IMG/VR virus record: IMGVR_UViG_3300020472_000135
Location: 1-27,999 of that record
DNA length: 27,999 nt
DNA from: a virus
Direction: 5' to 3' (one strand)
Position numbers and translations under genes: made by a program. The notes beneath the pieces were generated by a model. It saw only the letters and a list, made by a program, of their open reading frames with translations. It had not been told where the DNA came from and did no database searches. Positions 19,417-27,867 of the stretch are shown piece by piece. Each line of letters starts with the position of its first letter. The first letter of the stretch is position 1.

Positions 19417-19826
19417 TGATTATTCTCAATAACCTTAGAATTGTTCATGACTTGTATTTTCCACACAAATGGCTGTTCTTCATCGCCTACAATTTCGTGC
19501 CTGTCTGTTTCTTTCCAACCTGCTTGTGTCTTTAAATAAAAGATAGCCGCACTCGTATTACCATTTTGTGCCTGCTGTATAAGATTAGCCGCTACAGTCA
19601 CTATGGCTTTCGATTTTCCTCTTTTATATGCGGTAAAAACTTCTTCTTGTCTTTCTTCTACAGCTCTAAAAGTTTTTTCTGTCATTCCATAGTATTCTGC
19701 AATTTGTTTTTTGCTTAACATAGACGCTAGTTTTTCTACTTCCTCTGCTTGTACAGGCGTAAGCACTTTAGCGGGTCGTCCCCCACCTTCACCTTGATTA
19801 CCTTTTTTCATTAGCAAATCCGTCAT
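19413..19826 (-). CDS. terS: Terminase small subunit
   Basis: 137 residues. A basic start (KKGNQGEGGGRPAKVLTPVQ) leads to a helix-turn-helix (EEVEKLASMLSKKQIAEYYG, MTEKTFRAVEER), then a helical oligomerisation region (FTAYKRGKSKAIVTVAANLI) and the SAAIFYLKTQAGWKET signature common to small terminases of this class. This is the DNA-recognition subunit that picks the packaging site. The ATG at 19826 lies 29 bases inside the oxygenase gene; a second in-frame ATG at 19811 (MKKGNQ) has GACGGA upstream and is an equally plausible start. The stop overlaps the nuclease start (ATGA). Confidence 0.85.
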   Translation of the reverse strand: MTDLLMKKGNQGEGGGRPAKVLTPVQAEEVEKLASMLSKKQIAEYYGMTEKTFRAVEERQEEVFTAYKRGKSKAIVTVAANLIQQAQNGNTSAAIFYLKTQAGWKETDRHEIVGDEEQPFVWKIQVMNNSKVIENNQ

Positions 19827-20574
19827 AACAATACCAAATTAAACTATTTCTATAACCGTTATCATGTGTTTTTACAATTTCTGTAACGCCATGCTTATTC
19901 CTCCAAGCAGGGTAAACAAGCATAGAATTGTTTGCCGAGTCTATTGTTAAATCGTAATCAGGCAAATAAAGATTACCGCCTTTTGCGTTTAATCTTTTTG
20001 TAATAATGACATTTACACAGTTTTTCACGTTGCCTGTATCTTGGTGAATATCTGCGGATATATTGTAATTGCTGATAGAGCTAGTAAACATTTCAGCAAA
20101 TCGCCATTTTTCTGGCACTCTATCTATCATTGCCTCGTTATGTTTTTCGTATATTTTTGGTGCAATATCTTTGATTATTTTTGAAGATTTCACACCTGCT
20201 ATTGTCATAGCTTTTACAAATGTTCTAGCTGTCTTGGAAAGATGCACTGATGAGCGTGTCGCATAACTGCGCCTCATATGCTGCTTTGGTGGTACGCTAC
20301 CTATTATGCAACTGTATTGTTCTACTGATTTTTCTTTTTCCATCATCCCAGAAGAACGCCTCATTGTAGATTTCGGCACTCTCTCAGAATTTAATTCTAT
20401 GTCTGCTATTTGTACTAAATTTTTTATTTCGCTTGGTAGTTTTTTTAAATAAAAACCAATCACTTCGCCGTCATCAACAAATAAACTATCTTCTAATACG
20501 TTAGGCTCATTATTTGGCGGTCTCTGCCCTATTTTATAACTATTCTCTATAGGTTCTAAATGTAACTGTTTCAT
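19798..20574 (-). CDS. 2-oxoglutarate/Fe(II) dioxygenase, TET/JBP-like
   Basis: 258 residues. The C-terminal third has the double-stranded beta-helix signature: metal ligands His177 and Asp179 (ADIHQDTGN), GG at 199-200 with NLYLPDYDLTID, distal His228 (NKHGVTEI) and a 2-oxoglutarate-binding Arg242 (GYRNSLIWY). The H-x-D-x-x-N ... GG-x-L-x-L-P-x-Y ... HGVT ... R arrangement is closer to the TET/JBP family, which oxidises the methyl group of 5-methylcytosine or thymine, than to generic prolyl-hydroxylase-type oxygenases. The N-terminal 130 residues are of unknown fold, with a basic patch (QHMRRSYATRSS). It follows the methyltransferase by ATGA overlap and runs into terS. A DNA-base target is inferred; a protein or small-molecule substrate is not excluded. 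Confidence 0.75.
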   Translation of the reverse strand: MKQLHLEPIENSYKIGQRPPNNEPNVLEDSLFVDDGEVIGFYLKKLPSEIKNLVQIADIELNSERVPKSTMRRSSGMMEKEKSVEQYSCIIGSVPPKQHMRRSYATRSSVHLSKTARTFVKAMTIAGVKSSKIIKDIAPKIYEKHNEAMIDRVPEKWRFAEMFTSSISNYNISADIHQDTGNVKNCVNVIITKRLNAKGGNLYLPDYDLTIDSANNSMLVYPAWRNKHGVTEIVKTHDNGYRNSLIWYCYDGFANEKR

Positions 20575-21266
20575 TTTTCAAATAAAAATACATTTGTGCA
20601 AGGTGGAAACCATGATTGTTGCCAATAATATTCTCTTTTGTCGTTATAACAAATCGTATTCCAAGCTGCTTCTACCCTATAATCTTGTTTTTGTTTGTCT
20701 ATAACTTTCCATATCCTTTCTAAACTGTTGTCTATATCGAAAGACCACTCATAAACTAATTTTTTAAATTTATGTTTTAAATTCTCTAGAATAAGCATTT
20801 CAGCCCCTTCTATATCCATCTTACAACAATCTATATCATTTGCTTCTGTTTCAAAATTTAACGCTGGCACTTTTAGCCCTTTGCCATTCCAATTTTTTAT
20901 AATCGAATTACGCCACACGTTATTATTATTTCCTATAAACATATTTACGTGCTTTGTGTCATCATGAACGAGTGCTGCTTGTTTTATTTCTGCCTCTAAG
21001 TTGTTGAGTTTTAGGTTTTTTTCTATCATCTTGCAGTTGTGAGGGTCTGGCTCATAGACGGTTACTATTGCCCCTTGTTTAGCAGCTAATAATGTAAAAG
21101 CACCTACGTTACCGCCAGCATCTATCCATTTTTCATTTTTCTCTATTTTCATCCCTCTTTTTTGATATGTATTTTTCCCTATTACTTCTTCAAAAGTTTT
21201 GAAATCACTGAAACCTTCTCTATGATAAAACTCAATATCGTTTATGGATTGTTTATGCAGTTTCAT
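20571..21266 (-). CDS. FkbM-type SAM-dependent methyltransferase
   Basis: 231 residues. Motif I is WIDAGGNVGAFTLLAAKQG (residues 47-65) with Asp49 at the start of the SAM-binding loop; the acidic partner is in VYEPDPHN (Glu72, Asp74). KMDIEGAEMLILENL at 149-163 is the FkbM family hallmark. FkbM enzymes mainly O-methylate sugars or small molecules; none of the DNA C5- or N6-methylase motifs (PCQ, DPPY) is present. It begins 14 bases inside the ParB-like gene behind a weak A-rich ribosome site and ends in an ATGA overlap with the oxygenase, so the three are probably co-translated. The acceptor is unknown; a modified base or surface glycan are both possible. Confidence 0.8.
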   Translation of the reverse strand: MKLHKQSINDIEFYHREGFSDFKTFEEVIGKNTYQKRGMKIEKNEKWIDAGGNVGAFTLLAAKQGAIVTVYEPDPHNCKMIEKNLKLNNLEAEIKQAALVHDDTKHVNMFIGNNNNVWRNSIIKNWNGKGLKVPALNFETEANDIDCCKMDIEGAEMLILENLKHKFKKLVYEWSFDIDNSLERIWKVIDKQKQDYRVEAAWNTICYNDKREYYWQQSWFPPCTNVFLFEK

Positions 21267-21858
21267 TTTTTTCTTTTTCTGCTAGCAAATAATCTAATAT
21301 CATTTTACCTACATAACCGCCTCTATCACGCCAATACTTTACTACCTCTTTTGCTGGCTCATAATGCTCAGTATCAAACTCTATTTGTATAGCTTTCTTT
21401 ACATCATCAGCAAACCTATCTAATTGCGCTTCACTGTCTTCTAGGTCTAACGCGCCATAATCGGGTGATTCTATAAACTCTGGCAATTCGTCCCAACCCA
21501 ACAAAGTCACGTCAAAATCTAAATTAATCAACTCATCAAGTGATAATTGTAGTTTTTCTTCATCCCATCCAGCATTTAACGCTAACTTGTTATCTGCAAT
21601 AACGTATGCTTTGCGTTGTGCTTCTGTTAAATTTTCTAGTGTAATCGTAGGTACTTCTGGAATGTCTAACTCTTTAGCAGCTTCTAAACGACCATGACCT
21701 GCTATTATTGAGTTGTTTTCATCTATGAGTATAGGATTAGTAAAACCAAATTCTTCAATAGAATCAGATATCTGTTTTACCTGTTTTTCGGAATGAGTGC
21801 GCGAATTGTTGCTGTAAGGCTTGAGCGTATTAATAGCTCGGTAAGTAAGTTTTAGCAT
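21253..21858 (-). CDS. ParB/Srx-like nuclease-domain protein
   Basis: 201 residues. The N-terminal domain has the ParB/Srx fold signature: YRAINTLKPYSNNSRTHSE, QISDSIEEFGFTNPILID, then IIAGHGRLEAAKEL with the GHGR motif at 54-57, followed by QRKAYVIADNKLALNAGWDE. This is the variant often found in phages alone or fused to DNA methylases, rather than a chromosome-partition ParB: no downstream HTH domain is seen. The C-terminal tail (QIEFDTEHYEPAKEVVKYW) is amphipathic and of unknown role. A strong GGAGGG ribosome site precedes ATG 21858, and its promoter carries a 21-bp imperfect palindrome. Possible roles are DNA binding, nicking or acting as a nucleotide-dependent switch for the modification genes that follow. 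Confidence 0.85.
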   Translation of the reverse strand: MLKLTYRAINTLKPYSNNSRTHSEKQVKQISDSIEEFGFTNPILIDENNSIIAGHGRLEAAKELDIPEVPTITLENLTEAQRKAYVIADNKLALNAGWDEEKLQLSLDELINLDFDVTLLGWDELPEFIESPDYGALDLEDSEAQLDRFADDVKKAIQIEFDTEHYEPAKEVVKYWRDRGGYVGKMILDYLLAEKEKNETA

Positions 21859-22765: not shown

Positions 22766-22930
22766 TTACCTGCCCCTACAGTCTGGTTTTAGGTTTTTAT
22801 AATCTGGCCAATAACCATTACAAAAGTTATCTACATACAAGGCCTCGGCGTCTAGTGCGTCTTGAAAGGTTGTATTGCTAATCACCAACAACCCAATTAT
22901 CAATAACAATAAGCTAATCACTTTCATCAT
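22766..22930 (-). CDS. Small secreted or membrane-anchored phage protein, 54 residues
   Basis: My translation from ATG 22930 (or the adjacent ATG 22927) gives MMKVISLLLLIIGLLVISNT, a hydrophobic N-terminal segment that could be a signal peptide or membrane anchor, then QDALDAEALYVDNFCNGYWP and DYKNLKPDCRGR. The pattern (E-x-x-Y...G-x-WPDYK...C) is one I know from very small phage proteins of unknown function. Two Cys residues in the exported part could pair. The start overlaps the previous stop (ATGA), with AGGAG just upstream. It may be an inner-membrane or periplasmic factor acting on the host envelope; this is inference. Confidence 0.7.
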   Translation of the reverse strand: MMKVISLLLLIIGLLVISNTTFQDALDAEALYVDNFCNGYWPDYKNLKPDCRGR

Positions 22931-23313
22931 AGTTCTCCTGTAGCTAACTTGAAAAACTTTTTCACAAACTTAGGCACTTCAGTTCCACGACCAAACGTAG
23001 TAAGTTCATTGTCCTCATCCAGATACGCCCAGTCTCTATCTGCTAGCCCCTCATCCTCATTACTAACATCTTTTACAACTACAAATTGGTAGTAATCCCC
23101 ATTATCTTCTCGCTCTTTCTCTATCCCATAAGGTTCTAAATTGTTCAAGGCAATGTTGGAAGTACCCATTTGTTTCTTGTATTCCGCAATAGTGGTCTTG
23201 CTATCAAATGAAAAGAAGTGATTGTGGTCTAAAACTTCACCATCTTTTGAAGTTGTTTCCCAGTCAAACTCATAGCTTACGTTGTTAGGTTTGTGCTTTC
23301 TGTATCTCATCAT
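22927..23313 (-). CDS. Unknown acidic early/middle protein, 128 residues
   Basis: Not recognised. A GTG at 23334 would add seven residues, but the AAAGGAGAACT ribosome site points to ATG 23313 (or 23310 next to it). The protein starts with a basic patch (MRYRKHKPNN), then a beta-rich acidic region with many D, E, N and Y (SYEFDWETTSKDGEVLDHNH, DNGDYYQFVVVKDVSNEDEG) and a short basic helix at the end (VPKFVKKFFKLATG). Acidic small phage proteins are sometimes DNA mimics or inhibitors, which I mention only as a possibility. It is one of two genes led by the repeated hairpin element. Confidence 0.6.
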   Translation of the reverse strand: MMRYRKHKPNNVSYEFDWETTSKDGEVLDHNHFFSFDSKTTIAEYKKQMGTSNIALNNLEPYGIEKEREDNGDYYQFVVVKDVSNEDEGLADRDWAYLDEDNELTTFGRGTEVPKFVKKFFKLATGEL

Positions 23314-23324
23314 AGTTCTCCTTT

Positions 23325-23344
23325 GGTTATGCACATCCTTGTGC
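23325..23344 (-). repeat. Intercistronic hairpin repeat, copy 1
   Basis: The minus strand reads GCACAAGGATGTGCATAACC, identical to copy 2 at 23673-23692. The first 14 bases fold as GCACA-AGGA-TGTGC (five perfect pairs, four-base loop). It lies between the stop at 23353 and the ATG at 23313. An eight-codon mini-ORF (MCITKGEL, 23336-23310) begins in the hairpin and its TGA overlaps the next gene's ATG. Confidence 0.75.
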
Positions 23345-23352
23345 TGTTTAAA

Positions 23353-23661
23353 TTAGTCTCTGAATTTTTGTTCTGCTTCCCACTCCAGCTTCGCTTCCCA
23401 ATCCGAATCAGTCATAACTGGATTATACTGTCCAATTTCTTCACTCATATCTTTGGCAATAAGCTTCGGCAATCTTTCTCTAACCGATGAAATCATAAGA
23501 GCCGCAGCTTCGACATTTTCATTTAATACTATAGCCTCAACCTGCTCCAAAAGCGCCCAGATAGGATAATCATCAAAACTGGTACAGCTTTTTAAGTCAT
23601 TATCTATAAGCTCTCGGCAAGCCGGACTAATTAAATATGGGTTTGTTTTATCACCGTTCAT
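23353..23661 (-). CDS. Unknown early/middle protein, 102 residues
   Basis: Not recognised. A GTG at 23682 lies inside the repeated hairpin; the GGAGAG ribosome site instead favours ATG 23661. The N-terminus (MNGDKTNPYLISPACRELID) is followed by an amphipathic helical region (DYPIWALLEQVEAIVLNENV, AALMISSVRERLPKLIAKDM) and an acidic, Trp-containing tail (DSDWEAKLEWEAEQKF). Probably an all-helical small protein. It is placed between the two hairpin repeats. Confidence 0.6.
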   Translation of the reverse strand: MNGDKTNPYLISPACRELIDNDLKSCTSFDDYPIWALLEQVEAIVLNENVEAAALMISSVRERLPKLIAKDMSEEIGQYNPVMTDSDWEAKLEWEAEQKFRD

Positions 23662-23672
23662 TTTTTCTCTCC

Positions 23673-23692
23673 GGTTATGCACATCCTTGTGC
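23673..23692 (-). repeat. Intercistronic hairpin repeat, copy 2
   Basis: This is the same 20 bases as copy 1, between the stop at 23700 and ATG 23661. Its mini-ORF (MCITGEKK, 23684-23658) is also eight codons and also ends in a TGA overlapping the next ATG. The distance from the mini-ORF ATG to the gene ATG is 23 bases in both copies, although the 11 bases following the repeat differ. Confidence 0.75.
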
Positions 23693-23699
23693 GTTAAAA

Positions 23700-23978
23700 T
23701 TAAACTTCTACTAATTTTAGATTTCCGTTATTGGCTATCCTTTTAAGAAAATCTTTGCTGCGAATCTCTTCAAGCAAAGCAATATCTTCATCTGTTATGC
23801 CCTGCACTAAAGGAAAAGAATTTATGAATCTAATTACTTTCTTTGCGCTTGTTTTCGTTTTTCGCTCTCTCATTTCTTTCAGCAAAGCATCAAGGACTTC
23901 TGTTGCTGTCGTTTCTTTTTTGTACATGAGGTCGCGCATTTGGGTCATTGTTAATGTTTCTAGCTTTTGTAATGTCAT
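23700..23978 (-). CDS. Unknown helical protein, 92 residues
   Basis: Not recognised. It is helical and basic in the middle: QKLETLTMTQMRDLMYKKET, EVLDALLKEMRERKTKTSAK, then KVIRFINSFPLVQGITDEDI and ALLEEIRSKDFLKRIANNGN. The end looks like a short beta segment (LKLVEV). A GGAG ribosome site lies eight bases before the ATG. It is the first gene behind the promoter at 24015-24043, so it heads the small-gene transcription unit. Confidence 0.6.
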   Translation of the reverse strand: MTLQKLETLTMTQMRDLMYKKETTATEVLDALLKEMRERKTKTSAKKVIRFINSFPLVQGITDEDIALLEEIRSKDFLKRIANNGNLKLVEV

Positions 23979-25153: not shown

Positions 25154-25519
25154 ATGACATTTATGGGAAAACTAGACGCACCTTGTAGCGCAACTTCAGC
25201 AGAAATATACGAGGATTTGAAATCAATGAATAATAGAATCGAGATTTCAGAAGAGCAAAAGAAGGAAAAGGCTATTGCTTGGCTCGGAGAATCAGATGAT
25301 AACCTTTGGGAGGCTATCGGATATGAAGGTGTCCAACAAAAGCAAATAATAGCTGATGGTAAGGTGGTCTTCGTTACCGGAATGGATATATCGGACAAAA
25401 TTTGTGACCTTATTGATAGAGCCACCTCTGGCGATATTACGTCCTATACACGGCTAGGCGAATTGATAGCCGACCAAGCCATTGAGTATGCAAAACTCGT
25501 AACCGAGGATAAAACATGA
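25154..25519 (+). CDS. Unknown early protein, 121 residues
   Basis: Not recognised. Mostly helical and acidic (AEIYEDLKSMNNRIEISEEQ, KKEKAIAWLGESDDNLWEAI), with a short beta part in the middle (QQKQIIADGKVVFVTGMDIS) and a final amphipathic helix (LGELIADQAIEYAKLVTEDK). No catalytic motif, Cys cluster or membrane segment. It is the first gene behind the rightward promoter, with a strong ribosome site, so it is probably made early and abundantly; such genes often encode host-takeover or anti-defence proteins, but nothing in the sequence proves this. Confidence 0.65.
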   Translation: MTFMGKLDAPCSATSAEIYEDLKSMNNRIEISEEQKKEKAIAWLGESDDNLWEAIGYEGVQQKQIIADGKVVFVTGMDISDKICDLIDRATSGDITSYTRLGELIADQAIEYAKLVTEDKT

Positions 25520-25839
25520 GTGATTTGATATTTCTTCGACCAGACGGCTCTAAGGAAGAGATGGACATCAAGGACGCGGACAAGATAAGCGTTGGCGAGG
25601 CTATGGCCAGCATGAAACGCAATGTTGACAAGATGCTAGATGATGACCCATCACTAAAAAATCATGTTGAAACTGCTAGGGAAAATTCTATAAAAACTCT
25701 GGAAACCAAATTTCGCGAGAGATTGAGGGATTTTCGTAGTCGCGCCATTCATTTAATGGAAGAGGAGGAAGATTGGGATATATACGGCGATGAAGTTTTA
25801 AAACGCCTAAGAGTAAAAATTGAGGGAAAACATGACTAA
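25516..25839 (+). CDS. Unknown early protein, 107 residues
   Basis: Not recognised. It starts with a beta-like segment (SDLIFLRPDGSKEEMDIKD), followed by long charged helices (ASMKRNVDKMLDDDPSLKNH, ARENSIKTLETKFRERLRDF) and an acidic patch (HLMEEEEDWDIYGDE). It overlaps its neighbours (ATGA with the upstream gene; eight bases with the downstream gene), so expression is coupled. The coiled-coil-like middle suggests a dimer or a partner-binding role, not a known enzyme. Confidence 0.6.
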   Translation: MSDLIFLRPDGSKEEMDIKDADKISVGEAMASMKRNVDKMLDDDPSLKNHVETARENSIKTLETKFRERLRDFRSRAIHLMEEEEDWDIYGDEVLKRLRVKIEGKHD

Positions 25840-26176
25840 TCAACAATTTCTAAAATTAAAAAATGACGCTGTAGCCACAAAACTTAATGAATACAAAGAA
25901 AGCATCAATATTGAGGATATTGGTCGCACAGTAAGTGAAAAACTGGAGACAATTAGAGGTATGCAGTTGAAGCTAGAATTAGCTGCACAAACTGAATTAG
26001 TCACTTTATACAGTAAGTGTGTTGCTAAATACGGCTATACCTACAAAGGTTGTAAAAAGGCCAATGCAATATGCGCCTGTGTACACCCTGTTTTATGGGG
26101 TATACACAAAGAAGAAGTATGGCAAATGATTGATGAAAACTTTAACAACGAGTTATTTAGGAGAAATTATGAATGA
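25832..26176 (+). CDS. Unknown early protein, 114 residues
   Basis: Not recognised. I place the start at ATG 25832, with GAGGG just upstream; a TTG at 25820 would add four residues. The N-terminal half is helical (TNQQFLKLKNDAVATKLNEY, SEKLETIRGMQLKLELAAQT). The second half has four Cys (YSKCVAKYGYTYKGCKKANA, ICACVHPVL) and a Trp-rich end (GIHKEEVWQMIDENF). The Cys/His spacing is not a clear zinc finger, though metal binding is possible. It overlaps the annealing-protein gene by eight bases. Confidence 0.6.
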   Translation: MTNQQFLKLKNDAVATKLNEYKESINIEDIGRTVSEKLETIRGMQLKLELAAQTELVTLYSKCVAKYGYTYKGCKKANAICACVHPVLWGIHKEEVWQMIDENFNNELFRRNYE

Positions 26177-26696
26177 CATAAACAAAGAGGTAAGTGAATT
26201 AACTCGTAGGAACATATTAGACCTGTCTGAGTTGTGCAAACCCTTAGATATTAATGACATAGAATTTAGGGTAGGCCATAAAAACCAAATGGGACAATTT
26301 ATTTTAGCGTACAAAACTGCACGTATTGACATGGCTAGGTTAGACCGTGTTGTAGGAGCAGAAAATTGGCAAAGATGCCATACTAAAATTGAAGGTACTA
26401 ATTTTTGCAAAGTAGGCATAAAAATTGGTAATGAGTGGGTATGGAAAGAAGATGTAGGCGAAGAATCCACACAACATTCTGAAAAGGGTGCTGCTAGTGA
26501 TTCATTTAAACGAGCCTGTACTAATTGGGGTATTGGCAGGGAGTTATATAGGCTTCCTAAAATAATTGTAAAAACACAAGAACGCATATACCCACAATCT
26601 TGGCAATGGGTAGCAAATACAAATGATGATGGTTTTATTATTGGGCTACAGGCACAAAATCAGGGTACAAAAATGCCTTTGGAGTATTTGCGATGA
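26169..26696 (+). CDS. Rad52/Rad22-family single-strand annealing protein
   Basis: 175 residues from ATG 26169 (AGGAGAAATT upstream); an in-frame ATG at 26130 lies inside the previous gene and lacks a site. The diagnostic block at 97-130 includes EESTQHSEKGAASDSFKRAC, then TNWGIGRELYRLP, the Rad52_Rad22 signature. Earlier, LAYKTARIDMARLDRVVGAE and WQRCHTKIEG form the beta-hairpin core. Such proteins form rings that anneal complementary single strands for phage recombination and end repair. The gene is followed by an exonuclease (ATGA overlap) and SSB, the usual partners, which strengthens the call. The C-terminus ([20 protein letters not shown]) is short, with no long tail as in eukaryotic Rad52. 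Confidence 0.9.
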   Translation: MNDINKEVSELTRRNILDLSELCKPLDINDIEFRVGHKNQMGQFILAYKTARIDMARLDRVVGAENWQRCHTKIEGTNFCKVGIKIGNEWVWKEDVGEESTQHSEKGAASDSFKRACTNWGIGRELYRLPKIIVKTQERIYPQSWQWVANTNDDGFIIGLQAQNQGTKMPLEYLR

Positions 26697-27478
26697 TATA
26701 TGAGCAAATTGTCCAAGGTACAGAAGAATGGTTTGAGATAAAACTAGGTGTACCGAGTGCAGGTACTTTTAACACATTATTAACGACTCAAGGCAAAAGG
26801 AGCGCACAAGTTAAATCGACTATTAAAAAACTTGCTGATGAGCTTATTCGCTACGAACACTTTGAAAGTTATACCAATGAAGATATGGAGGAAGGCAAGT
26901 TACGAGAGGCTGAAGGGCGTACACGTTACGCAGAAGCACTAGATATGACTACTATTTATCACCCTGATTTAGACCATACTAGAGGGATAGTTAAAGAGGT
27001 GGGATTTGTCACCAAAGAATTTGAGCAGCTAGAACATATAGCGCCGTTCAATAAAATTGGTTGCAGTCCTGACGGATTAGTATTTAAAAATCACAAACTG
27101 ATAGGAGGTGTCGAGATAAAAAGTCCTAGACCTTACACGCATTTAGGGTATTTAGATGACAAAAAAATACCCTCAAACTATTTACTACAAGTCGTAGGTA
27201 GTATGTATGTATGCGGTTGTGAATATTGGGATTTTTTCAGCCATCATAAAGACTATGAAAAACCGTTTTGCTTACGAGCGCACAGGGATGAAACGAGCAT
27301 ACAAGAATTATTTAATGAGTTAGAACAAGTATGTATAGATGCCTTGCTTGGTATACATAACTTGTTTAATCAATACAGCAATTCCGATAAAGAAAAAATA
27401 ATCGAACGTAAAAAACAGATATATAAACCAATAGAGGGCGCAACATGGCTAGCAGAGGAATCAATAAGGCAATTATAG
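26693..27478 (+). CDS. YqaJ/lambda-exo-type recombination exonuclease
   Basis: 261 residues. The family start ([20 protein letters not shown]) is followed by [19 protein letters not shown] with Glu74, CSPDGLVF with Asp127, [10 protein letters not shown] with Glu141 and Lys143, and [15 protein letters not shown] with Gln166: the full PD-(D/E)XK set E...D...ExK...Q of YqaJ exonucleases. These degrade one strand of double-stranded ends to give single strands for the annealing protein. Length is typical for lambda-exo-like enzymes. It overlaps the annealing gene by four bases and the SSB gene by 34 bases. All catalytic residues appear intact. Confidence 0.92.
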
Positions 27479-27867
27479 TGGGTAATGTAGGCAATGACCC
27501 TGACATACGGACAATGCCTAACGGCAATCAAGTTGTAAATTTGTCGCTAGCAACAAGTGATGAATGGAAAGATAAAGAAACAGGTGAAAAAAAAGAAAAA
27601 ACAGAATGGCATAGATGCATATTTTTTAATCAAATAGCAGATATTGCGGCTAAATATGTTAATAAAGGCTCTAAACTATATATAGAGGGGCGTTTGCAGA
27701 CTCGCAGCTATGAGCAAGATGGTGTAAAAAAATATTCTACAGAAATTGTAGTCAAAGATATGCAAATGTTAGATAGCAAAAAAGATTCTACAAACAACGA
27801 AGTGAAAGAGGCGAGTCAAAATGATTTAAGTAAATTTTCTAATTTTGACGATGACATTCCTTTTTAG
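27445..27867 (+). CDS. ssb: Single-stranded DNA-binding protein
   Basis: 140 residues. OB-fold SSB signatures are clear: [54 protein letters not shown] and [21 protein letters not shown] short disordered linker leads to the acidic tip FDDDIPF, the docking tail of bacterial SSB that recruits repair and replication proteins; the phage thus keeps the ability to use host partners. It starts 34 bases inside the exonuclease gene behind GAGGG. It is the last gene before a structured non-coding stretch at the window edge. Confidence 0.95.

Follow-up and report, generated by a model that had tools for sequence, protein, structure and literature searches.

Which factor reads a short hairpin that a phage carries twice, letter for letter, in front of two different small genes? 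The window analysed here, the whole 28-kb IMG/VR viral record IMGVR_UViG_3300020472_000135, contains the 20-mer GCACAAGGATGTGCATAACC exactly twice, both copies on the minus strand (Table 1; the repeat can also be written as GCACAAGGATGTGC-ATAACC), and 100 dinucleotide shuffles of the window gave an expectation of zero such 20-mers even with three mismatches tolerated.

The two copies and their surroundings

A sequence-only reading of this stretch had described the element as occurring twice, each time just past a stop codon, with a GCACA-AGGA-TGTGC hairpin in each copy and an eight-codon mini-ORF ending in a TGA that overlaps the ATG of the next gene. All of this was borne out: the copies are exact and lie 7–8 nt after the stop, each folds at −4.5 kcal/mol in isolation, and both mini-ORFs exist as described in the window. 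The positions given there were also correct, being valid on the minus strand, which had been omitted. Read on that strand, both copies display the same order, i.e. stop codon, 7–8 nt, hairpin GCACA-AGGA-UGUGC, AUAACC, a Shine–Dalgarno sequence (SD; GGAGAG or AAGGAG) and AUG. The identical 23-base spacing to which the same reading drew attention holds from ATG to ATG in both copies, and the differing bases in between turned out to be the SDs of the downstream genes, so that this spacing is limited by ordinary start-site geometry.

Table 1. Positions of the repeat copies and neighbouring features in the window, and of two related sites in phage T4.
Feature	Position	Strand	Remarks
92-aa gene, upstream of copy A	23700..23978	−	No Pfam family
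Hairpin copy A, GCACAAGGAUGUGC	23679..23692	−	Stem GCAC/GUGC, closing C-G pair, loop A-AGGA-U (CsrA-type ANGGAN); exact repeat including AUAACC, 23673–23692
Mini-ORF MCITGEKK-stop, over the loop ATG of copy A	23658..23684	−	Judged a by-product of GGAUG, SD and ATGA
SD GGAGAG of the 102-aa gene	23667..23672	−	SD GGA starts 14 nt past the loop GGA of copy A (11 nt between)
102-aa gene, between copy A (upstream) and copy B (downstream)	23353..23661	−	No Pfam family
Hairpin copy B, 14-mer identical to copy A	23331..23344	−	Exact repeat 23325–23344; same fold
Mini-ORF MCITKGEL-stop, over the loop ATG of copy B	23310..23336	−	Judged a by-product
SD AAGGAG of the 127/128-aa gene	23318..23323	−	SD GGA starts 17 nt past the loop GGA of copy B (14 nt between)
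127/128-aa gene, downstream of copy B	22927..23313	−	ATG at 23313 or 23310; no Pfam family; weak short match to phrog_15581, function unassigned there
T4 sites L446 and L450	2430–2453; 50945–50968 (T4)	−	Located at gene 60/rIIA.1 and at nrdC.5/nrdC.4, respectively; perfect CsrA-type hairpin as 17-bp spacer, TTTACT-...CCACAAGGATGTGG-TATAAT

The Rfam search of the window returned no family above the gathering score, and an INPHARED search with the window DNA and the three flanking proteins returned no close relatives. Among the best matches listed, the terminase shows 42–46% identity to those of gammaproteobacterial phages. Elsewhere in the window, adjoining genes at 19798–21858 (minus strand) encode a TET/JBP-type 2-oxoglutarate oxygenase (PF12851), an FkbM-type methyltransferase (PF05050) and a protein with a ParB N-terminal domain (PF02195, slightly below the cut-off), a gene set suggestive of hypermodified bases in the phage's DNA. 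A recombination cluster occupies 25154–27867 on the plus strand (a Rad52-type annealing protein, PF04098; a YqaJ/RecE-like exonuclease; and an SSB-like protein with a DDIPF end), and the divergent switch of the window lies near 25.0–25.15 kb.

Conservation and position of the hairpin in phages

The exact 20-mer was found in four further viral contigs, each time between a stop codon and an SD-preceded start and before genes other than those of the window. In contigs L126 and L127 a homologue of the 92-aa gene precedes the element and a gene different from that in the window follows it. Since the element appears with differing gene pairs across contigs, it is modular and not bound to one gene pair. 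Persistence at the same junctions in relatives, on which the sequence-only reading had staked its proposal, was seen at one junction and not at the other: a homologue of the 102-aa gene (57% identity, contig L124) is preceded by GCACAAGGAGGTGC, which keeps the hairpin and the loop GGA and has lost the ATG of the mini-ORF, and a homologue of the 127-aa gene (79% identical, contig L123) has no hairpin at the junction. At an SSB/exonuclease junction, IMG/VR relatives carry a GGA hairpin; the cultured Pseudoalteromonas H103, Vibrio pYD21-A and L1, and Alcaligenes CASP1 (L130–L133) have unrelated GC-rich hairpins there and lack the element. Among bacterial genomes the search for the 20-mer gave a single match, to the relaxed pattern (Formivibrio), within apparent coding sequence.

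Occurrences counted as in context had a stop codon at most 40 nt before them and an SD-preceded start within the next 56 nt. Among the matches listed, the 14-mer of the window was in context in 32 of 108 distinct viral occurrences, compared with 3 of 90 for a control with a GAA loop (GCACAAGAATGTGC; Fisher p ~4e-7) and 4 of 108 for the 14-mer on the opposite strand (Fisher p ~2e-7); many viral matches to the 14-mer are chance ones in coding sequence. With the outer pair changed (CCACAAGGATGTGG), 17 of 105 occurrences were in context versus 5 of 105 on the opposite strand (p 0.012). When only the core CANGGANG was searched and the stem left unfixed, three outer pairs were present at 18 of 82 in-context sites versus 58 of 955 elsewhere (p 7e-6), and eleven scrambled loop motifs each gave 0–6 in-context sites with three outer pairs. 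Most hairpins began 7–14 nt past the stop codon. Strand specificity, dependence on the GGA and a position between stop and SD are thereby directly supported, as are the sequence, the hairpin and its covariation described below.

The part common to approximately 60 distinct phage elements is a hairpin with a closing C-G pair and the loop ANGGAN (C-A-N-G-G-A-N-G). Across 49 aligned elements the C, the A, the GGA and the G are invariant, the base before the GGA varies and any base may follow it. In the same set, 90% of the stem cells pair, double changes occur at four of the six pairs, and 31 stem cells are doubly changed versus 7.8 in shuffles, a count that is biased towards structure because the 49 elements had been selected for three outer pairs. 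Independent support for the stem comes from the stem-unfixed search with CANGGANG and from elements found later by model search, whose compensated stems include GCUC/GAGC, UAUACC/GGUAUA and GGAC/GUCC. Elements found without a stem seed have entirely different, compensated stems and the loops AAGGAU, AAGGAA, AAGGAC, ACGGAU, AGGGAA and AUGGAA (ATGGAA in DNA), and G-U pairs are present in some stems.

Named phages carry the hairpin too. BLAST with the element plus SD as query located it between genes in Vibrio parahaemolyticus and Vibrio natriegens phages (after thymidylate synthase genes), in a Vibrio crassostreae phage (after a ribonucleotide reductase gene) and in phages of Erwinia, Yersinia ruckeri and Pectobacterium, the Pectobacterium site lying between DNA polymerase and endonuclease VII; the outer pairs of several of these elements are compensated. 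Matches in Vibrio phage eugene and in Klebsiella ST147-VIM1phi7.2 lacked the 5′ stem arm, lay inside genes and were dropped. A covariance model detected the element in T4, rV5 and ICP1, and did not detect it in six phages of cyanobacterial, alphaproteobacterial, Staphylococcus and Listeria hosts; matches of the model in KVP40 and nt-1 lie in coding sequence and were discarded.

An unseeded genome scan of eight gammaproteobacterial phages yielded 18 intergenic CANGGANG hairpins before an SD-preceded start (five in VnaP; four each in T4 and rV5; two in 10AMN; one each in Felix O1, ICP1 and 184E37; and none in KVP40). For 17 scrambled motifs in the same eight genomes the sum was 23, or 1.35 per motif (Poisson p ~1e-14, with sites treated as independent). 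In five phages with other hosts the same scan produced a single match, which resembles an SD within a weak hairpin; the scan covered most, not all, of the genome for P-SSM2, KVP40 and Staphylococcus phage K. The element-bearing isolates have as hosts Vibrio, Erwinia, Pectobacterium, Yersinia and E. coli, all known to have CsrA. To our knowledge, the hosts of the other phages do not possess csrA, this being least certain for Listeria and the cyanobacteria.

A candidate operator for host CsrA

The hairpin type itself is already known. The SELEX consensus for CsrA/RsmE is RUACARGGAUGU, with ACA and GGA fully conserved and a hairpin hexaloop ANGGAN, and a CsrA dimer bridges two sites that are 10–63 nt apart (PMC7652899). 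In Pseudomonas protegens, RsmE represses lipA via ACAAGGAUGU, which overlies the lipA SD (PMC12134079). That same sequence is the exact core of the window element, letter for letter. Compared with the consensus, GCACAAGGAUGU has one mismatch (C for U at position 2) and the core ACARGGAUGU is exact; in both window copies the GGA sits in an ANGGAN loop with a closing C-G pair. The element thus shares with the CsrA/RsmA/RsmE target hairpins of glgC, hcnA and lipA the hexaloop, the C-G closing pair, the ACA...UGU flanks and a place at or just before the SD. Unlike those targets, it is found in phage mRNAs, mostly 7–14 nt past the preceding stop, as a portable module before unrelated genes, and is known here from sequence. 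Repeated GGA hairpins of the CAGGA(U/A/C)G type also occur in the sponge RNAs CsrB, CsrC, RsmY and RsmZ, whereas the phage hairpins are single and dispersed before genes and form no small-RNA cluster.

Genes for csrA have been described on phages and plasmids (PMC7366521; plasmid-borne RsmQ, PMC9928087; phage PTXU04 in PMC11879866), and their carriers are mobile elements that engage the Csr/Rsm system, as the phages studied here would. Those carriers encode the protein, whereas the window and the 33 carrier phage records hold sites and no detectable csrA: a gene search of the window, which recovered E. coli CsrA as positive control, and one of the 33 records detected none. A phage-encoded reader was accordingly rejected, and host CsrA would be the reader. 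Judging only by distant gammaproteobacterial relatives, the host of the window phage presumably has a csrA gene.

We consider it probable, from these sequence features, that the hairpin is a translational operator for host CsrA, which would repress the downstream gene within a polycistronic phage mRNA. One face of the CsrA dimer would hold the ANGGAN hairpin loop, and the other may contact the GGA in the SD next to it, 11–14 nt away; occupancy would shut out the 30S subunit and lower translation of the downstream gene, and the upstream gene on the same transcript would still be translated. A GGA is present in the downstream SD of 46 of the 59 in-context elements and of both window copies (11 and 14 nt from the loop GGA), compared with 69% of background SDs (p 0.16), so dual-site bridging is without statistical support; in the window copies the SD GGA is a possible second CsrA contact. 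We infer both the binding of CsrA and a repressive outcome as opposed to activation or stabilisation. Counting against an operator of this kind are the single site in Felix O1, the absence of any in KVP40, and the location of about a quarter of all elements within promoter spacers.

Alternative readings and promoter-nested hairpins

Even with CsrA as the binding protein, repression might not be its main effect: bound CsrA could protect the intercistronic mRNA from RNase E or activate translation, or the hairpins could jointly serve as a sponge and titrate the CsrA of the host. Some mRNAs are known to be activated or stabilised by CsrA; a hairpin starting mostly 7–14 nt past the upstream stop would fit 3′ protection too, and several copies per genome (five in VnaP, four in T4) on abundant phage mRNA could titrate the protein. 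The sites, however, stand singly before SDs, unclustered unlike those of CsrB-type RNAs, and the window has only two, and we regard these other outcomes as unlikely.

The loop also contains AAGGA and is thus SD-like, which would suit a ribosome-related element, i.e. an SD mimic or standby site, or a mini-ORF that couples translation of the upstream gene to that of the next. The sequence-only reading had proposed along these lines that the AGGA loop exposes or hides ribosome binding at the mini-ORF start. Among the 59 in-context elements, the mini-ORF stop falls at or a few bases from the next start in 15, mostly as ATGA, and the downstream gene starts with ATGA in 37 of 51 ATG cases versus 37% in a crude background, an excess that is possibly a background artefact or possibly tied to coupling. 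Against this, the loops ATGGAA, ACGGAU, AGGGAA and AAGGAC retain the GGA and no longer have the ATG or the match to an SD; the loop ATG is missing in 7 of the 59 elements and at the homologous junction in L124, and lacks a spaced SD of its own; and the frame bias is marginal (24/52, p 0.056). The frame itself can be as short as 1 codon and as long as 17 codons or more (5 codons in contig L125), and the mini-ORF was rejected as a conserved unit of leader-peptide control on account of the missing ATG, the variable length and the loss in L124. What had been taken for a modular translation-control unit thus survives as the hairpin, which precedes unrelated genes in many phages, is strand-specific and has a GGA-dependent loop; the mini-ORF is not conserved with it, and the evidence on the loop points to a CsrA/RsmA protein site (ANGGAN) in place of the proposed ribosome switch. 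For RNA processing, the other role proposed there, the sequence analysis yielded no sign of RNase III or RNase E action. A ribosome-related role appears very improbable to us. A generic intercistronic hairpin with a stabilising or insulating role, or a site for another GGA-preferring RNA-binding protein or nuclease such as T4 RegB, is the least probable of the readings. Ordinary GC-rich hairpins do occupy the same SSB/exonuclease junction in some carriers' cultured relatives, but such hairpins would have no need of a GGA, and few scrambled loops turn up at such positions; RegB belongs to T4-type phages, and the element is found in unrelated phages.

Promoters bear on the remaining alternative, in which the element works as DNA, either as a palindromic operator or as a favoured spacer of phage promoters. 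Flanking −35/−10 hexamers were detected at p <= 0.05 for 20 of 78 elements (approximately 4 expected), with the hairpin fitting exactly as the spacer of a sigma70-type promoter in T4 (TTTACT-17-TATAAT, twice; Table 1), rV5 and others; the ICP1 element lies within an annotated promoter. Two further T4 elements are located in the nrdC region. Most elements, both window copies included, are nevertheless without promoter flanks. At the window copies the flanking hexamers reached p values of 0.11 and 0.13 and no promoter was called, and a −10 there would place the transcript start on the SD. The asymmetric GGA centre is moreover invariant and strand-specific, and G-U stem pairs occur, all of which speaks against a DNA element. 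We rate it as slightly less probable still than the ribosome-related role.

For the host-CsrA operator, a hairpin inside a promoter spacer has a particular consequence: mRNA started from that promoter would be without the hairpin, and read-through mRNA alone would carry it. The T4 genes e, soc, 49 and I-TevI have hairpins in their early transcripts with an internal late promoter. The T4, rV5 and ICP1 elements resemble them in having the promoter and hairpin nested, so that the hairpin would be present on read-through mRNA and missing from mRNA started at the promoter. Unlike those hairpins, which sequester the start site by pairing, the short phage elements would need a bound protein, and the window copies lie outside any promoter. 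A broader picture, which we regard as possible if somewhat doubtful, is that a portable CsrA operator has been gained repeatedly by phages, both lytic and temperate and unrelated to one another, whose hosts bear CsrA, T4 being one of them; where a promoter is nested in it, host CsrA would silence the read-through mRNA and the promoter-started mRNA would escape, such that the carbon-storage regulator would gate the timing and level of phage gene expression.

No description of a phage intercistronic, portable, promoter-nested CsrA-type hairpin was found in the open-access literature, a scope that leaves most subscription journals uncovered. The link between phages and the Csr system that is already known consists of csrA genes on mobile elements (PMC7366521, PMC11879866) and of the phage-fitness effect of csrA knock-down, which in an E. 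coli CRISPRi screen gave a broad fitness advantage against phages and was ascribed to pleiotropy (PMC7553319). Were CsrA operators present on phage mRNAs, some of that effect could be exerted directly. The idea lends itself to testing in the most tractable phage–host pair, since four candidate sites are present in T4. If it is true, phage gene expression would receive input from the metabolic state sensed via Csr.
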